Translations under genes and position numbers: made by a program | Assembly (NCBI RefSeq): GCF_030908625.1 | Contig: NZ_CP133133.1 | Span: 806,001 to 870,000 of the forward strand | Direction: 5' to 3' | Length of the DNA: 64,000 bases | Origin: Paludicola sp. MB14-C6 | GTDB lineage: Bacteria > Bacillota > Clostridia > Oscillospirales > Ruminococcaceae | Notes under the pieces: model-generated | Told to the model about the DNA's origin: nothing | Databases searched by the model: none | What the model saw: the letters and a program-made list of their open reading frames with translations, nothing else | In this document: positions 1 to 5,637 of the stretch, piece by piece | Layout: each line of letters starts with the position of its first letter | Position numbering within the stretch: the first letter of the stretch is position 1

Positions 1-236
1 TCCGCAATCAAGTAATTTGCAAGTCCTTGAGTTGCTTTGCGAATCGTATAAACGTTAATACGATTTGTTCCAGCGCCAATTACTCCACGCAAACCGCCTG
101 TACCAAACTCTAAATCACGATAAAATCGGTCTTTGATTGCATCAACGTCACCGTTAATTGCTGCTAGCTCGTCTCTTAAATCTGTATCGTCAAGTTCTGT
201 TCTTGTCCATACATTATACAATTGCATTTCTTCCAT
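1..236 (-). CDS. Phosphoglucomutase/phosphomannomutase, N-terminal part (cut by window edge)
   Basis: Reading the reverse strand from an ATG at 236 gives 78 codons that run off the window. The protein starts MEEMQLYNVW and contains FGTGGLRGVIGAG followed by NRINVYTIRKATQGLA. This is the N-terminal substrate-binding region of alpha-D-phosphohexomutases of the PgcA type, which interconvert hexose 1- and 6-phosphates in the cytoplasm. The catalytic phosphoserine lies beyond the window. A GGGAGG ribosome binding site precedes the ATG. It lies 35 bp after the GHL-type gene on the same strand, so it may be the last visible gene of the rnf-like operon. Confidence 0.85.
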   Translation of the reverse strand, partial: MEEMQLYNVWTRTELDDTDLRDELAAINGDVDAIKDRFYRDLEFGTGGLRGVIGAGTNRINVYTIRKATQGLANYLIA

Positions 237-271
237 TCCTAATCCTCCCACTATTCCTATGATGCACCTAT

Positions 272-1438
272 TTACATCAAAATATAATTTTCTATCTTTA
301 ATTCTTTTAATATAGGCTCTAACACTGTTAAGTCTGATTGTTTGATTACAGGCATAAATTGAACATCTTTGTTACCACTTTGAATCTTTTGTAAAATTGC
401 TTTTACAATATCAGTTTCGCTGCCCTCAATTTGAGCAGCAGTTTTTATTTCAGGTAATTTTGCTTTTACTACTTCCATATTTATTATAGGAGATAGATTT
501 GTATAGCTAATTGCAGAAGCTTGATTGCTATATCCGGAAGCATTTACATTTGCAAATACTTCGATGTTAATTCCTTGCAACACCTTAGCTTTACCTGCAG
601 CAGTTTGCGCTTCTTGCAACAATTGTTTTAAAATTTCAGGTTTTGGTTTATTCTCATTGATTAAATTTAACTTACCTGTATTTTTTTCAGGGAACATTAC
701 ATTATCTAATACAATAGCTTCAAAGCCTGCTGTAGAAAGTTCTTTTGTTAAATCGCAAATATAACTTCTTGCTTTATCCATATAAGGGTTTAACCAAGGC
801 TTTCCGCCCTTATCAACTGAATTATCCAACCAGTTTGTTGTTAAGGTTGTTCCGAAAGCATAAGAGTTTTCGTTCTTTACATGAGGAGCTATTCCATCTT
901 TTAAAGCACTCATTTGTGCAAGTGGTTTTAGTCCTGCATCTTTCATTGCTTTCACCAAAACATTCAAGTCAATTGGGTTTTCAGCAACTGCATTGAATTT
1001 CTTTGCAGATTCATTTTGTGTATTATAATATATTTTTCCTTCCGGAGTTTTTAATTCTACATATACTGCATTATACCCATCCGTTTTGAATTTTTGCATA
1101 ACAGCCTTAAATTGGTCTGCAGAATGTTGGGCCAATTGAGAAGATGGAAGATAGGCGGCCTTAATCTCCTTAAGGGAATCGGAGGTATCAGGCTTACTAT
1201 TGGTTCCGCTTGAGACAAGAGAAGAAGGCTTACTCTCGGAATAATCTGAGCTGGTGTTAGATGATGGCTTAGGTGCATTTGGTCCAAATCGTTTTGACCA
1301 TTCACCTTTTACAATAAAGCCGAAGCCAACTAAGACAAACAAAAATAATATAAATACAATTGTGGATAATGCTTTGCTCTTCGTACGCTTTCGTTTGTAA
1401 ATTCTTTTTGTACGAATTATCTTACGTTGTTTGGACAT
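272..1438 (-). CDS. Membrane-anchored putative glycoside hydrolase (DUF4015/GHL type)
   Basis: 388 residues. A very basic N-terminus (many R/K in residues 4-22) is followed by one membrane segment at about 23-44 and a Ser-rich linker at about 55-88. The extracellular domain from about 90 has AVYVELKTPEGKIYY, WLNPYMDKAR and EAIVLDNVMFPE. These fit the TIM-barrel DUF4015 family of putative glycoside hydrolases. The basic stop-transfer N-terminus suggests a type II signal anchor rather than a cleaved signal peptide. The substrate is unknown. The gene begins 25 bp after rnfA and has AAAGGAG before its ATG, which suggests co-transcription with the rnf-like genes. Confidence 0.7.
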   Translation of the reverse strand: MSKQRKIIRTKRIYKRKRTKSKALSTIVFILFLFVLVGFGFIVKGEWSKRFGPNAPKPSSNTSSDYSESKPSSLVSSGTNSKPDTSDSLKEIKAAYLPSSQLAQHSADQFKAVMQKFKTDGYNAVYVELKTPEGKIYYNTQNESAKKFNAVAENPIDLNVLVKAMKDAGLKPLAQMSALKDGIAPHVKNENSYAFGTTLTTNWLDNSVDKGGKPWLNPYMDKARSYICDLTKELSTAGFEAIVLDNVMFPEKNTGKLNLINENKPKPEILKQLLQEAQTAAGKAKVLQGINIEVFANVNASGYSNQASAISYTNLSPIINMEVVKAKLPEIKTAAQIEGSETDIVKAILQKIQSGNKDVQFMPVIKQSDLTVLEPILKELKIENYILM

Positions 1439-1463: not shown

Positions 1464-2084
1464 TTAAAATGGTAGCTCATGGCCAATCAAACCATAAATC
1501 GCTAAAGAAACAATACCGATATATATTAGCGTTATTGGAAATCCACGAAAAGCATTTGGCACATGTTCACTGGAAAGACGCTCATACGCTAAATCAACAA
1601 AATAAGATGCAATTGTATAACCAATACCCGTTCCTATTCCAAAGCCTATATAACCAGCAAAGTTTAAATTTGCAATATTTGCGCTTAGAAGTAATGCTCC
1701 TAAAACAGCACAGTTAAATGTGCTGACATGAATCATAGGCAAAATAACTTTTTTATATTTTGGAAAACAGCTTGATGTTACGATTAACGCTGTAAGATAT
1801 ACAATACCGATAATAACAACGTAAATTGCGGGAGTAATGTAATACCTATAAGATAGCCCTTGCAGAAGTGGGTTAACAAAATAGGTTATAATGGACGACA
1901 CAGTAATTACTGTTGTCATAATTAATCCAAACAAAAAGATATTATATTTTTTTCTCACAGTATACAGCACAGTACTGGTACCGATTGCTCTAGAGAAAAT
2001 AGTATTTTCTAAAAAGATAGCTATTAGCGCAAAAGTCAGCATATCCTTAAAAAAGGAACCTGTAATTTGTAAAAAACTGTTCAA
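1464..2084 (-). CDS. RnfA/NqrE-family membrane subunit, divergent
   Basis: 206 residues with about six membrane segments; TTG start eight bases after GGAGG. It aligns without gaps to the RnfA N-terminal motif: ENTIFSRAIGTSTVL corresponds to the family's ENFVLSRFLGICPFL. The family Cys of the first half-helix is therefore Ser37 here and the next Pro is Thr. The second motif, FNCAVLGA, keeps its Cys (Cys125). In Rnf and Nqr these Cys together with two in RnfE/NqrD hold an Fe-S centre inside the membrane. With only one left, ordinary electron transfer is doubtful. The family assignment is firm; the function is open. Confidence 0.8.
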   Translation of the reverse strand: MNSFLQITGSFFKDMLTFALIAIFLENTIFSRAIGTSTVLYTVRKKYNIFLFGLIMTTVITVSSIITYFVNPLLQGLSYRYYITPAIYVVIIGIVYLTALIVTSSCFPKYKKVILPMIHVSTFNCAVLGALLLSANIANLNFAGYIGFGIGTGIGYTIASYFVDLAYERLSSEHVPNAFRGFPITLIYIGIVSLAIYGLIGHELPF

Positions 2085-2107
2085 TGAACGTTCCTCCCCT
2101 CTTTCTA

Positions 2108-2761
2108 TTATTTTGTTTCAGGAACAGCAATTGGATTGCGCTCCTTCGGATTTTCAAGCTTGTATTTGATTCGTTTCACAAGTGCAGCTAAAAATCCGAC
2201 TAAAATAAATCCACTGAAAGGATAAATGATAGCAGGTACTTTGAATGGTAAGCTAATTGCTTGACCCATTAAAGTTCCGTTGCCTATTATTTCACGAATG
2301 GTACCAACTAAAACGATTACAAGGAAGAATCCAATAGTATGGCAAAGTAAATCAACAATCATCATTCCTTTTTTATGCTTATGGAATCGTGATTCACTTT
2401 TTACAACAATTAAGGAGTTTGCTACAAGCAATGGCAAGAAAATTCCTAATTTAAATACCTGTTCTGGATAGATTGAATCCATCCACATTGCAGTAGGGAT
2501 AAAAATGGCGCAAGCAATCAACGTATAAAAGATAGAACGAATCGTATACGGAATTTTCTTCGGAATAAAGGAAGATAACAACACAGTGAAAAATGTAATC
2601 ATAACAAAAGAAATACCAAGAATGATAGAATTTTGATAGTTATAGCTTGCTACAATTACAGGTGATAAAACCAAACCTCTTTCCAAAACGGTGTTTCCCA
2701 ATAACAATCCGTTAAATTTTTCAAATGACTTCTTATGTCTTAAATAAAATGTTTTTTTCAT
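2108..2761 (-). CDS. RnfE/NqrD-family membrane subunit, divergent
   Basis: 217 residues, about six membrane segments. The first family motif (LGLCPTLAVT) reads LVLSPVIVAS here, giving Ser33 in place of Cys. The second (IPLIVVNCIIL) reads LPLLVANSLIV, giving Ser116 in place of Cys. The downstream GTIREIIGNGTLMG segment is well conserved, so this is not random decay. The ATG overlaps the stop of the upstream rnfD-like gene by one base, indicating translational coupling. Both iron-ligand Cys are absent, so the protein cannot carry its half of the usual Fe-S site. It may have a structural or ion-transport role, or act with a different carrier. Confidence 0.8.
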   Translation of the reverse strand: MKKTFYLRHKKSFEKFNGLLLGNTVLERGLVLSPVIVASYNYQNSIILGISFVMITFFTVLLSSFIPKKIPYTIRSIFYTLIACAIFIPTAMWMDSIYPEQVFKLGIFLPLLVANSLIVVKSESRFHKHKKGMMIVDLLCHTIGFFLVIVLVGTIREIIGNGTLMGQAISLPFKVPAIIYPFSGFILVGFLAALVKRIKYKLENPKERNPIAVPETK

Positions 2762-3939
2762 TATTTTCTACCTGCCTTCCCGGCCTTTGCATTTGCCTTA
2801 CTCTTTTTAGCTTGGTTAGTATTGCCTTTTGCAGGTTGAGTTTCTTTTAATACAACAACTTCTTCAACTTTTTCATTTGCATCAACTTCGCCAACTACTA
2901 CAATCCTAGCCTTGCTTAATTCAGGCTGTGGCTTTTCAATCGGTTGCATTGCTTCTTGCTCTGTTGAAGTATTTTCTCTCTTTTGCTTTGCTTTTGATGA
3001 ATCCATAAATGCATTCATTTTATTGTGTAAAGCATTCGCATAACGATCACATGGAATTGCAAAGATATTTGCAATTAAAATTGCATATACAAATTCTAAT
3101 TCCATCGCACCAAAATGCCTGAAAATCATAACAAAAATTCCTAGAATCAAGCCGTATAAAACTTGGCCATTTTTGGTCTTCGGCATTGTTGCGGGATCAC
3201 TCGCCATAAAGATTGTTCCAAATAACAATACGCCGGAAGTAAATTCAAATACCAATGAGGATACCAAATTGGTTTGTACTCTAGGGAAAAGCAAAGCTGT
3301 AATTGCAACAACTAGAATAGTTGAGGAAACTACACGTATGTTAATCACTCTGCGGATTAACAAATAAATCATACATGTTAGTAAAACTAAAATACAGGTT
3401 GCCCCCATAGGGCCTGCAAAATCACCTAAAAGAACAGTAAAATAATGAGTTTTTGGAGTTCCTCCACCTTTCAAGATGCTGGAGAAAGAATCCACATATT
3501 GAATCATAGAAGCATCTGTTACTGATTTAATAGCTTGTGGAATTGGATAACGCAATACATACTCCGGCCAGCAAATTGCAACAAAAGCAAGACCAGCTGC
3601 TGCTGGGTTGAAAATATTGAATCCCGTTCCACCAAATGGATGCTTTGCAATTACCAACGCAACAAAAACGCTTACAACAACAATCCACCAAGGAGCAGTT
3701 GCAGGAAGCAATAGCGTTGTTATGAGTGCAGTTATAATACAAGAATAATCTTGATTTTCAATTTTCTTTTTGCCCGCAAACCGGTTACAAATAAATTCAA
3801 AAACTATAGCAGTTGCCACACCCACAATTAACAAAGGAATTATCATTTGTCCGTATAAATAGAACGGCATCACCGCAACCGCAAGTAACGTCAAAATAAT
3901 ATTGATATACTTTTTTTTCATAGTAGTTTGTTTTTCCAT
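2761..3939 (-). CDS. RnfD/NqrB-family membrane subunit with long charged C-terminal tail, divergent
   Basis: An ATG at 3939 with GAGG five bases upstream is preferred over the longer frame from 3978, giving 392 residues. Multiple membrane helices and the signature HPFGGTGFNIFNPAAAG (about 100-116) place it in the RnfD/NqrB family. Where RnfD normally has the flavin-attachment Thr in a (S/T)GATPL motif, this protein has VTDASM, with Ser144 at the Thr position. The family GSIGETS-type motif reads GPMGATC. About 90 C-terminal residues form a hydrophilic, Lys/Ala/Glu-rich tail ending KAGKAGRK, which I do not know from typical RnfD. It is the first gene of the leftward operon. Confidence 0.78.
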   Translation of the reverse strand: MEKQTTMKKKYINIILTLLAVAVMPFYLYGQMIIPLLIVGVATAIVFEFICNRFAGKKKIENQDYSCIITALITTLLLPATAPWWIVVVSVFVALVIAKHPFGGTGFNIFNPAAAGLAFVAICWPEYVLRYPIPQAIKSVTDASMIQYVDSFSSILKGGGTPKTHYFTVLLGDFAGPMGATCILVLLTCMIYLLIRRVINIRVVSSTILVVAITALLFPRVQTNLVSSLVFEFTSGVLLFGTIFMASDPATMPKTKNGQVLYGLILGIFVMIFRHFGAMELEFVYAILIANIFAIPCDRYANALHNKMNAFMDSSKAKQKRENTSTEQEAMQPIEKPQPELSKARIVVVGEVDANEKVEEVVVLKETQPAKGNTNQAKKSKANAKAGKAGRK

Positions 3940-4125
3940 ACATACCTCATTTCTGCCCAAAATCGAATTGAAAACCATATCGCTTGGCTATATTGTTTTA
4001 GAAAAGTTATTGCAAATCATTCAGCATTATTAGTCGCACTTTTCAATAAAATTAGTATACTGTAGTAACAGGAAAATAATGAAATTCATAATCCTTACCC
4101 CATTGTGGAAACGGAGTGATACATT

Positions 4126-4707
4126 TTGAAGATTGAGCTGTTAGATGACAAGACAGTAAAGGTTGTTCTTTCAAACGCTGATATGGCGCAATTTAATCTA
4201 ACATATGATGAAATGGATTATAAAAATCCAGATACAAAGCGTGTTATTTTACAGCTTGTCGATCAGATTAAGCGTGAAGTAAGCATCGACCTTTCTACCG
4301 GAAAGCTCTTTATTGAAGCGTTTCCTTATGCAGACGGCGGATGTATATTATATGTGAATTTACTGGATAGCACTCAAAAAAATAAACAAGGATGTCATAA
4401 ATATAAAACCAGTTTTGATACACCAATCGCCTTTTGTTTCAAAGATATCAATGCACTCGCCGACTTATCTAAACGACTCATATCAAAATATGGGCATATC
4501 ATTCTAAAAAACGCATTATATCTTGAACAAGATAAATACTATTTGTTAATCTATACCTATTTCAAAATGGATGAACAGCTACTTCATTTATTAACTGAAT
4601 ATGGCCAATTTTACGGAAAAGGCAGTCTTGTATCTTCAATTATTCAAGAACATGCGCAAGAAATCATTGCCACAGAAGCGCTTGAAACCTTAAGCGAATG
4701 CTTATAG
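4126..4707 (+). CDS. MecA-like adaptor protein
   Basis: 193 residues; TTG start with GGAG nine bases upstream. The N-terminal part (MKIELLDDKTVKVVLSNADM, then predicted strand-helix-strand) resembles the MecA N-domain that binds substrates. The C-terminal half (FCFKDINALADLSKRL, then YLEQDKYYLLIYT) resembles the MecA C-domain that docks to ClpC. MecA proteins hand substrates to the ClpCP protease. It is divergent from the rnf-like operon, and its 3' end overlaps the rpe stop by a few bases, so the two genes converge. Confidence 0.65.
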   Translation: MKIELLDDKTVKVVLSNADMAQFNLTYDEMDYKNPDTKRVILQLVDQIKREVSIDLSTGKLFIEAFPYADGGCILYVNLLDSTQKNKQGCHKYKTSFDTPIAFCFKDINALADLSKRLISKYGHIILKNALYLEQDKYYLLIYTYFKMDEQLLHLLTEYGQFYGKGSLVSSIIQEHAQEIIATEALETLSECL

Positions 4708-5343
4708 TTTTTGTAATTTTGTAACCATTTCGCTTGGATTTTTTGCTTGAAATACAAACGAACCAGCAACCAAAATATTAGAGCCGGCATCAACGCAAAG
4801 CTTACCTGTTGTTTCGTTAATGCCGCCATCAACTTGAATATCAATGGATCGTCCTTTCTCAGCAGCCATACACTTCACTTCTTGAATTTTAGGAAGCATA
4901 TCTTCCATAAACGCTTGTCCACCAAAACCAGGCTCTACTGTCATAATTAATACCATATCAATTTGATTAATAAGATGAGCAATTGCGCTTGGACTGGTCT
5001 TTGGCTTTAATGCAATTCCGACTTTCTTTCCATGTTTTTTAACAACATCAATTACTTTTTGAGCGTCGGAATCAGATTCAATATGAAAACAAAATAAATC
5101 TGCACCTGCATTTAAAAATGCTTCAGCATAAAACAGCGGATCACTTATCATTAGATGAACATCTAAAAAAAGGTGAGACGCTTTTTTTATTGCCTGCACA
5201 ACAGGAACACCTATTGATATATTAGGAACAAAATGCCCATCCATTACATCAATGTGAAGCATATCGGCATTTTCTACTTTTTTTATGTCATGAATTAGAT
5301 TAGCAAAATCTGCTGAAAGAATAGAAGGAGATACTTTAATCAT
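4702..5343 (-). CDS. rpe: Ribulose-phosphate 3-epimerase
   Basis: 213 residues, normal for the family. It shows VSPSILSADFANL at the N-terminus, HIDVMDGHFVPNIS (metal and catalytic residues), HLMI, VEPGFGGQAF and VDGGI. It interconverts ribulose 5-phosphate and xylulose 5-phosphate in the pentose phosphate pathway, in the cytoplasm. An AAAGGA site precedes the ATG. It stands alone, convergent with the MecA-like gene and overlapping its stop codon. All key residues are present. Confidence 0.95.
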   Translation of the reverse strand: MIKVSPSILSADFANLIHDIKKVENADMLHIDVMDGHFVPNISIGVPVVQAIKKASHLFLDVHLMISDPLFYAEAFLNAGADLFCFHIESDSDAQKVIDVVKKHGKKVGIALKPKTSPSAIAHLINQIDMVLIMTVEPGFGGQAFMEDMLPKIQEVKCMAAEKGRSIDIQVDGGINETTGKLCVDAGSNILVAGSFVFQAKNPSEMVTKLQKL

Positions 5344-5637
5344 TTTACTTTTTCCTTTAGTTAATTTCTTAGCAATTTATCTATGTGAATGTCTTTTTTT
5401 CAAAATCATATTCACAATATAGAATTAAAACAAAGACAGACGCTACCAAATTTATTGTACTCTTTTCTTGTTTTCCAGTCAACAAATTTATTCGATTTTT
5501 CTTGATTATTCAGCACATTCGTTTATAATAAATAAAGGTAACACTCAAATTCAAATATTTATTATCATTCAAAACGAATTGCTGTTACAATATCTTACAT
5601 TATTATAGGTATTATTTACGAAATCATGAGGTGTAAT

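Follow-up and report, generated by a model that had tools for sequence, protein, structure and literature searches.

What can a set of Rnf-type membrane proteins do when most of the residues that pass electrons through the Rnf complex are gone? This question is raised by a stretch of 64,000 nucleotides from the genome of Paludicola sp. MB14-C6 (NCBI RefSeq assembly GCF_030908625.1, contig NZ_CP133133.1, positions 806,001 to 870,000), here called the window. Near its beginning, three adjacent genes encode homologues of RnfD, RnfE and RnfA (the module), followed by a gene for a protein with a DUF4015 domain. Our tentative preference, held with slightly less than even confidence, is that the module is a neofunctionalised paralogue of the Rnf core without the Rnf electron path, which would probably form an electron-independent, ion-linked complex with the DUF4015 protein. 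An initial annotation, made from the sequence alone, had pointed in this direction, and its claims are taken up where they apply. Papers are cited by PMC number.

Loss of the cluster sites in RnfE and RnfA

Relatives were collected by similarity searches of 61 genomes (five without a match) with the window RnfE and of named genomes with the window RnfA. The named-genome search gave 77 loci, at least one of them canonical, and the loci used were L040-L075 and L079-L155. After entries with identical RnfA C-termini had been dropped, 96 remained, with 94 RnfE, 94 RnfA and 93 RnfD rows. This sample favours the family because its members were picked by similarity to the window RnfE or RnfA, and its rows are phylogenetically non-independent. 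As controls served 27 canonical complexes, chosen by operon content or best match and independently of their Cys residues; 22 of them come from genomes that also yielded a variant locus.

The sites of the [2Fe-2S] cluster are numbered by the Rnf complex of Acetobacterium woodii (PDB 9eri), and the alignment has no gap around them. In the window, RnfE C25 corresponds to S33, RnfE C108 to S116 and RnfA C25 to S37. Only the equivalent of RnfA C113 is retained, as C125, which leaves one of the four cluster Cys. At the other three positions no relative that keeps Cys was found (0/94 each, one row being gapped at RnfE-25), whereas all four Cys are present in 27/27 canonical controls. The exchange of Cys for Ser described in the initial annotation is thus correct for the window, and the loss of Cys is indeed shared by the whole sampled family, but Ser is not the conserved state. 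Among the 94 relatives, 69 have Ala, 9 have Pro and 4 have Ser at RnfE-25, RnfE-108 is Ser in 41 and Pro in 41, and 79 have Ser at RnfA-25. Likewise, C125 is the sole cluster Cys left in the window, but only 41/94 relatives carry Cys there (one row gapped). A conserved Cys-to-Ser swap was rejected, Ala and Pro being as common at the RnfE sites. Judged from these alignments, the family-wide shared trait is the loss of Cys, mostly to Ala, Ser or Pro, and not a gain of Ser. Since Cys is missing at three sites in all relatives and present in all canonical controls, a sequencing error is unlikely; the family-wide loss, together with the low substitution ratios given below, argues against a single decayed copy as well.

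It seems very improbable that the module is a normal Rnf complex with a cluster ligated by other residues. Such a cluster could make use of the retained C125, and Ser serves as Fe-S ligand in some proteins. However, the family has Ala, Pro, Ser, Gly, Asp or still other residues at the three sites, Cys at RnfA-113 is found in a minority only, and the remaining Cys of the window proteins (E84, E140 and A106) lie outside the columns conserved in at least 80%.

The gate residues have mostly been kept. In A. woodii, R67 and E115 of RnfE and N112 of RnfA are described to gate or contact Na+, and reduction of the A/E cluster pulls Na+ into A/E and powers the switch between inward and outward states (PMC11889175). 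R67 and E115 are found in the window as R75 and E123 (R or K in 86/94 and E in 71/94 relatives), and N112 is found as N124 (present in 90/94).

Flavin sites in RnfD and the RnfC-like proteins

For RnfD, Ser144 had been named as the counterpart of the Thr that binds flavin mononucleotide (FMN). The A. woodii residue, T156, corresponds to S157 by pairwise alignment and to S164 in the family alignment; S157 is the former Ser144 plus 13 residues for an upstream ATG (start at 3978). A Ser is therefore met in both alignments, but its position depends on the register, and Ser144 as a fixed counterpart was rejected. Because Ser is accepted by ApbE as flavinylation residue (PMC12052999), Ser alone is no bar to flavinylation, and it is the loss of the motif that makes the argument. 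The ApbE motif pattern was matched by 0/93 variant RnfD proteins and by only 15/27 canonical ones, one of these 15 matches (L155) falling outside the site. At the aligned flavinylation site, an Ala-Ser/Thr pair is present in 2/93 variants versus 27/27 canonical proteins, all of them with Ala-Thr.

For riboflavin, the window RnfD retains both ligands, N123 as N124 and D249 as D261 (numbered from the 3978 start). In the whole family, N is found in 58/93 rows, and the second position is D in 53/93 and E in 31/93. All 20 variants with an RnfC-like gene have N123 and D or E for D249, compared with 32/73 RnfC-less variants, of which 35/73 have His, Ser or Gln in place of N (Fisher p 1.3e-6, with only 1-2 independent pairs on the tree). 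As one or two losses of RnfC underlie this correlation, it is no independent test. From these ligands, riboflavin appears possible in the window RnfD and less so in many RnfC-less relatives.

The RnfC-like proteins carry two CxxCxxCxxxC ([4Fe-4S]) motifs in 20/20 cases. The strict glycine loop GxGGxGFPT occurs in 0/20 of them and is also absent in one of four canonical RnfC proteins (L074). The Complex1_51K profile gave 148 bits with canonical RnfC, and 66, 27, 21 bits and no match with the four RnfC-like proteins tested. The window branch is without an RnfC-like protein beside the module. One RnfC-like protein (L060) has 786 amino acids with a long, low-complexity C-terminal tail.

A shortened redox relay is possible but doubtful. 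Here, the riboflavin of RnfD, in some relatives together with the RnfC-like [4Fe-4S] protein, would take up cytoplasmic electrons and act as reductase or sensor, with A/E as scaffold. The complete riboflavin ligands and Fe-S motifs of the 20 RnfC-bearing variants are consistent with it, and so is the retention of N124 and D261 in the window, given that Rnf of A. woodii loses its activity through either N123A or D249A (PMC11889175). Against the relay speak the RnfC-less members, the window group, where both ligands are kept in less than half, the lack of the strict glycine loop (a pattern that misses one canonical RnfC too) and the failure to find RnfG beside the module. The correlation between RnfC and riboflavin ligands does not decide the matter. 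The term redox-free, used in the initial annotation, is appropriate for the lost cluster ligands but maybe too strong in view of the kept N124 and D261 and of the RnfC-like [4Fe-4S] proteins in 20/89 loci.

A transporter for flavin or another solute, in which RnfD (and A/E) would serve as permease with the old flavin pocket, is distinctly unlikely. It would agree with the multi-helix nature of the membrane proteins and with the window's riboflavin ligands, which are still there although the fixed redox sites have gone. Yet the ligands are altered in many members (His, Gln or Ser for N; Glu for D), and the identified neighbours (rpe, mecA, RnfC-like and DUF4015 genes) are not flavin genes, although the search was not aimed at flavin genes.

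Gene order and selection

Gene order was counted in 92 loci with D, E and A, using at most 4 kb of sequence; some loci end at contig edges. Across families, the arrangement rpe-[RnfC-like]-D-E-A-DUF4015 is retained. A DUF4015 gene adjoins the module in 78/86 loci with enough sequence, and rpe lies upstream in 87/89 and is codirectional in 91/91, while mecA is a neighbour in 30/89. Without mecA, the gap to rpe is mostly below 60 bases or negative, with a maximum of 246; some negative gaps arise because genes were taken from their first start codon. RnfG and RnfB were found within 4 kb of variant modules in 0/92 loci each. For the window, the reported absence of rnfB, rnfC and rnfG near the module was confirmed.

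The ratio of nonsynonymous to synonymous substitution rates (dN/dS), calculated for D, E and A in 15 chosen pairs, lies mostly at 0.03-0.2, a level comparable to that of rpe. Exceptions on the high side are the A gene of L117/L128 (0.42), the E gene of L112/L113 (0.26) and, with 0.21-0.33, the two Faecalibacterium loci L145/L153; dS is saturated in most genes of the pair L151/L142. For the DUF4015 gene, dN/dS is 0.07-0.39. The module genes are under purifying selection. A decaying duplicate, for which one could quote long tree branches and a stop inside the E gene of one relative (G058), is refuted as a general account and retains next to no probability: dN/dS of D, E and A is low in most pairs, and frames and order are intact across families. 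The initial preference for re-purposing over decay is hence well founded, with the family-wide loss, the purifying selection, the conserved neighbourhood and the genomes without canonical Rnf all in its favour.

In two members of family f7 (L073 5857-7371, and L187), RnfE has 505 and 503 amino acids, respectively, with a long, low-complexity N-terminal extension. Both have lost all four cluster Cys, and their genomes (G042 and G066) are without other Rnf A/E.

Canonical Rnf in the same genomes

The genome of the window also contains a complete rnfCDGEAB operon (G000:C1:277.7-282.6 kb), about 0.5 Mb from the module on the 2.94 Mb chromosome, which is a single contig. Both the Ala-Thr flavinylation site and all four Cys of the cluster are present in this operon. 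Matches to RnfC_N and to full-length RnfB are restricted to it, and FMN_bind occurs twice in the genome, in RnfG and in a lipoprotein-like open reading frame (ORF) that lies some 2 kb upstream of rnfC in this operon. The latter is accompanied by two further ORFs, which we take to be an ApbE-like and a membrane ORF; the set (L006 3362-5666) resembles that of flavin-based extracellular electron transfer.

Five genomes with a completeness of 90-99% (G042, G066, G085, G127 and G231) harbour the module but no canonical Rnf A/E. They have exactly two PF02508 genes, both belonging to the module, no FMN_bind protein was found in them, and their RnfB matches are only short and ferredoxin-like. The window genome aside, FMN_bind was matched in 0/7 genomes searched. 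Two genomes with a similar picture, G008 and G029, were not counted, because their completeness is 84-86% and a full-length RnfB-like gene is present in G008. Given the module genomes that lack canonical Rnf, we rejected as a general rule that the module relies on a canonical complex in its own cell. An accessory role, in which the module as alternative core or regulator would borrow RnfB, RnfC and RnfG of a full operon, is accordingly quite improbable. The complete operon of the window genome and the 22 canonical controls sharing genomes with the module would permit it, but the five genomes, at least 90% complete, hold only the module A/E, without FMN_bind or a full RnfB match, and the cluster required to join B to G is absent.

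Distribution and phylogeny

The module family is present in at least five families of the window's order (codes f1, f5, f7, f23 and f24), and its carriers are mostly gut bacteria. Among those with names are Merdimmobilis hominis, Massilioclostridium coli, Gemmiger, Fournierella, Faecalibacterium longum, F. hattorii, Neobittarella, Pygmaiobacter, Yanshouia and Caproiciproducens. One carrier (L107) is labelled Marvinbryantia formatexigens, a species of another family, in the title of its metagenome-assembled genome. At least 23 of 245 drawn genomes of the order have a place that scores 165 bits or more with the variant profile, a line that was set after the scores had been seen. This is a lower bound because true members within the order score 139-156 bits (G085, G202, G112 and G097). 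In a class-wide draw of 291 genomes, 165 bits were reached only inside the order (5 genomes), and the best match outside had 154 bits; since true members drop to 139-156 bits, the score cannot tell matches outside from divergent members.

A tree of 68 concatenated D-E-A rows (quick method, midpoint root) placed the 16 canonical complexes in one group (99*), which is adjoined by the RnfC-bearing L073. Of 35 RnfC-less rows, 34 fall together with the window (support 81), 33 of these at 95*, and L062, on a long branch, lies outside this group. As the deep splits are weak and the root is the midpoint, we can only infer that the loss of RnfC followed those of B and G.

Organisation of the locus

The homology of the three proteins to RnfA, RnfE and RnfD, stated in the initial annotation, is supported by Pfam (Table 1) and by matches to Rnf subunits in PDB (D, E 2e-34; E, E 7e-17; A, E 2e-18). 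The curated NCBIfam cut-offs were not reached (rnfA 78/229, rnfE 82/213, rnfD 178/207 bits), and an assignment to Na+-NQR also stays below its curated cut-offs (nqrB 97/350, nqrD 46/245, nqrE 41/248 bits).

Table 1. Features of the module and of its surroundings in the window
Feature	Position	Strand	Evidence and remarks
RnfD/NqrB-like membrane protein	2761..3939 (alternative start 3978)	-	Pfam PF03116, E 1.1e-71
RnfE-like membrane protein	2108..2761	-	Pfam PF02508, E 5e-29
RnfA-like membrane protein	1464..2084	-	TTG start after GGGGAGGA; Pfam PF02508, E 1.8e-22
DUF4015 (glycosyl-hydrolase-like) protein, next in conserved cluster	272..1438	-	PDB 4s1a match, E 4e-30
Sugar-phosphate-mutase-like gene, cut by window end	3..251	-	576 amino acids in L007
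MecA-like adaptor, divergent, between rpe and rnfD	4126..4707	+	profile matches; neighbour in 30/89 loci
Ribulose-phosphate 3-epimerase-like gene (rpe), upstream, codirectional	4702..5343	-	neighbour in 87/89 loci

GAGG precedes the start of the rnfD-like gene at 3939. The predicted structure of its product (392 residues) is mostly helical with a mean predicted local distance difference test (pLDDT) value of 84; the Lys-rich C-terminal tail is disordered, with pLDDT below 50 for residues 344-376 and 389-392. PF03116 was the sole domain found in it by Pfam search, without a fused PF00175 NAD-binding domain. The downstream order is as first described, the DUF4015 protein (then called a membrane glycoside hydrolase) being followed by the start of the mutase-like gene, which is the downstream neighbour in some relatives only. 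We take the products of the mutase-like gene and of rpe to be a sugar-phosphate mutase and a ribulose-phosphate 3-epimerase. A Rex-like site with two mismatches lies at 5358-5375, about 30 bases upstream of rpe. Control of the module by Rex was rejected, as the window has 19 Rex-like sites versus 23.4 expected by chance. In Caproicibacterium lactatifermentans, too, a Rex site is listed before rpe (PMC9600882).

The window DUF4015 protein consists of a basic N-terminal tail, one predicted transmembrane helix, a Ser-rich linker and an alpha/beta domain. K130, D181, W203, W215 and P250 are invariant in 25 aligned members, and D205 and E233 are conserved in 24, while the Asp within FDYIRFP of 4s1a has an Asp counterpart in only 8/25. 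From its sequence, the domain may have an enzyme activity. In most of the 25 members, the transmembrane helix is preceded by a basic segment of the N-terminal tail that resembles K-(I/V)-K-R-x-x-x-I-Y.

Possible function

The path concerned leads from ferredoxin to nicotinamide adenine dinucleotide (Fd-RnfB-[2Fe-2S]AE-FMN(G)-FMN(D)-riboflavin(D)-RnfC-NAD). Because three A/E ligands, the covalent-FMN motif of RnfD, RnfB and RnfG are gone, it should bypass the module. A coupling of redox reactions and ion movement as in A. woodii cannot operate as described, since the cluster, B and G are absent. From the gate residues that persist, A/E may still conduct or switch. RnfA and RnfE, with RnfD alongside, would then still form an ion gate, and no cluster would have to be reduced for it to alternate between its inward and outward states. 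By analogy, the membrane-anchored DUF4015 protein may occupy the place of RnfG at the outer face, and movement of Na+ or H+ would thereby be coupled to binding of, or work on, an extracytoplasmic partner. Alternatively, the complex might simply be an electron-independent path for ions or a solute. In some relatives, the RnfC-like [4Fe-4S] protein may feed or sense the riboflavin of RnfD. An ion- or flavin-linked function, as proposed in the initial annotation, is conceivable.

Several observations weigh against a neofunctionalised, electron-independent complex. RnfA E88, a member of the ion-pair network of A. woodii, is lost, and RnfE E115 is altered in 23/94 relatives. The DUF4015 gene is missing in 8/86 loci with room for it and in five f24 loci, and is therefore not obligate. 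In one relative, an in-frame TGA lies inside the E gene (G058:C22:17415-17972; L035, L062), which may reflect local decay, an error or recoding. The deepest splits of the midpoint-rooted tree are weak (support 13). Finally, the riboflavin ligands kept in the window leave room for redox chemistry.

A bolder proposal, which we consider rather unlikely, makes the module a redox-free, ion-driven machine. A/E would let Na+ or H+ pass downhill and drive an outer DUF4015 protein that binds or cuts glycans, in analogy to ExbBD, TolQR or MotAB, and the family, with Faecalibacterium among the prominent gut bacteria that carry it, would represent a third branch of the Rnf/NQR superfamily.

Comparison with known systems

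With the Rnf complex (RnfCDGEAB), the module shares D, E and A, which are homologous and identically ordered, the gate residues of RnfE and, in the window, the riboflavin ligands; some relatives share an RnfC-like protein as well. The predicted transmembrane helix and outside domain (related to 4s1a) of the DUF4015 protein are arranged much as in RnfG. The module differs by the lack of RnfB and RnfG (92 loci), the incomplete A/E ligands and the missing flavinylation motif of RnfD. Furthermore, the window has no RnfC next to the module, the RnfC-like proteins of relatives do not show the usual glycine loop, and DUF4015 is added.

Na+-NQR is described to have arisen by duplication of an rnf operon, loss of rnfB and gain of a new function (Reyes-Prieto et al., PMC4014512), and in this respect the module is alike. 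However, Na+-NQR keeps the redox core and recruited NqrF, whereas the module lost the A/E cluster and no reductase gene was seen among its conserved neighbours. The module family is a redesign separate from NQR. Two-subunit NQR/RNF-like flavinylation systems (PMC8238504, PMC11334425) also have an NqrB/RnfD homologue without the flavinylation Thr, which is fused to PF00175 and paired with an RnfG-like protein. The module, in contrast, has neither PF00175 nor an FMN_bind partner, and A and E are present.

In Faecalibacterium duncaniae A2-165, 'rnfDEA' (CG447_09840-830) has been counted as a second operon for an NADH:ferredoxin oxidoreductase (PMC10781979). The gene set matches the module by name alone, and the Cys-less module is seen in Faecalibacterium L145 and L153. 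These sequences, from other Faecalibacterium species, argue against such an enzyme. A literature search, mostly at the level of titles and beginnings of abstracts, revealed no description of a Cys-less RnfDEA family.

A few names in source records call the module proteins Rnf-Nqr domain proteins, and the sequences argue against an Rnf electron path behind this name. In the energy scheme of Faecalibacterium, where rnfDEA has been placed (PMC10781979), the module is probably not that respiratory enzyme. Because the A/E gate is kept and the cluster presumed to drive it is gone, the family can be regarded as a natural experiment on the Rnf mechanism, and it opens the question of which role A and E fulfil without redox coupling.

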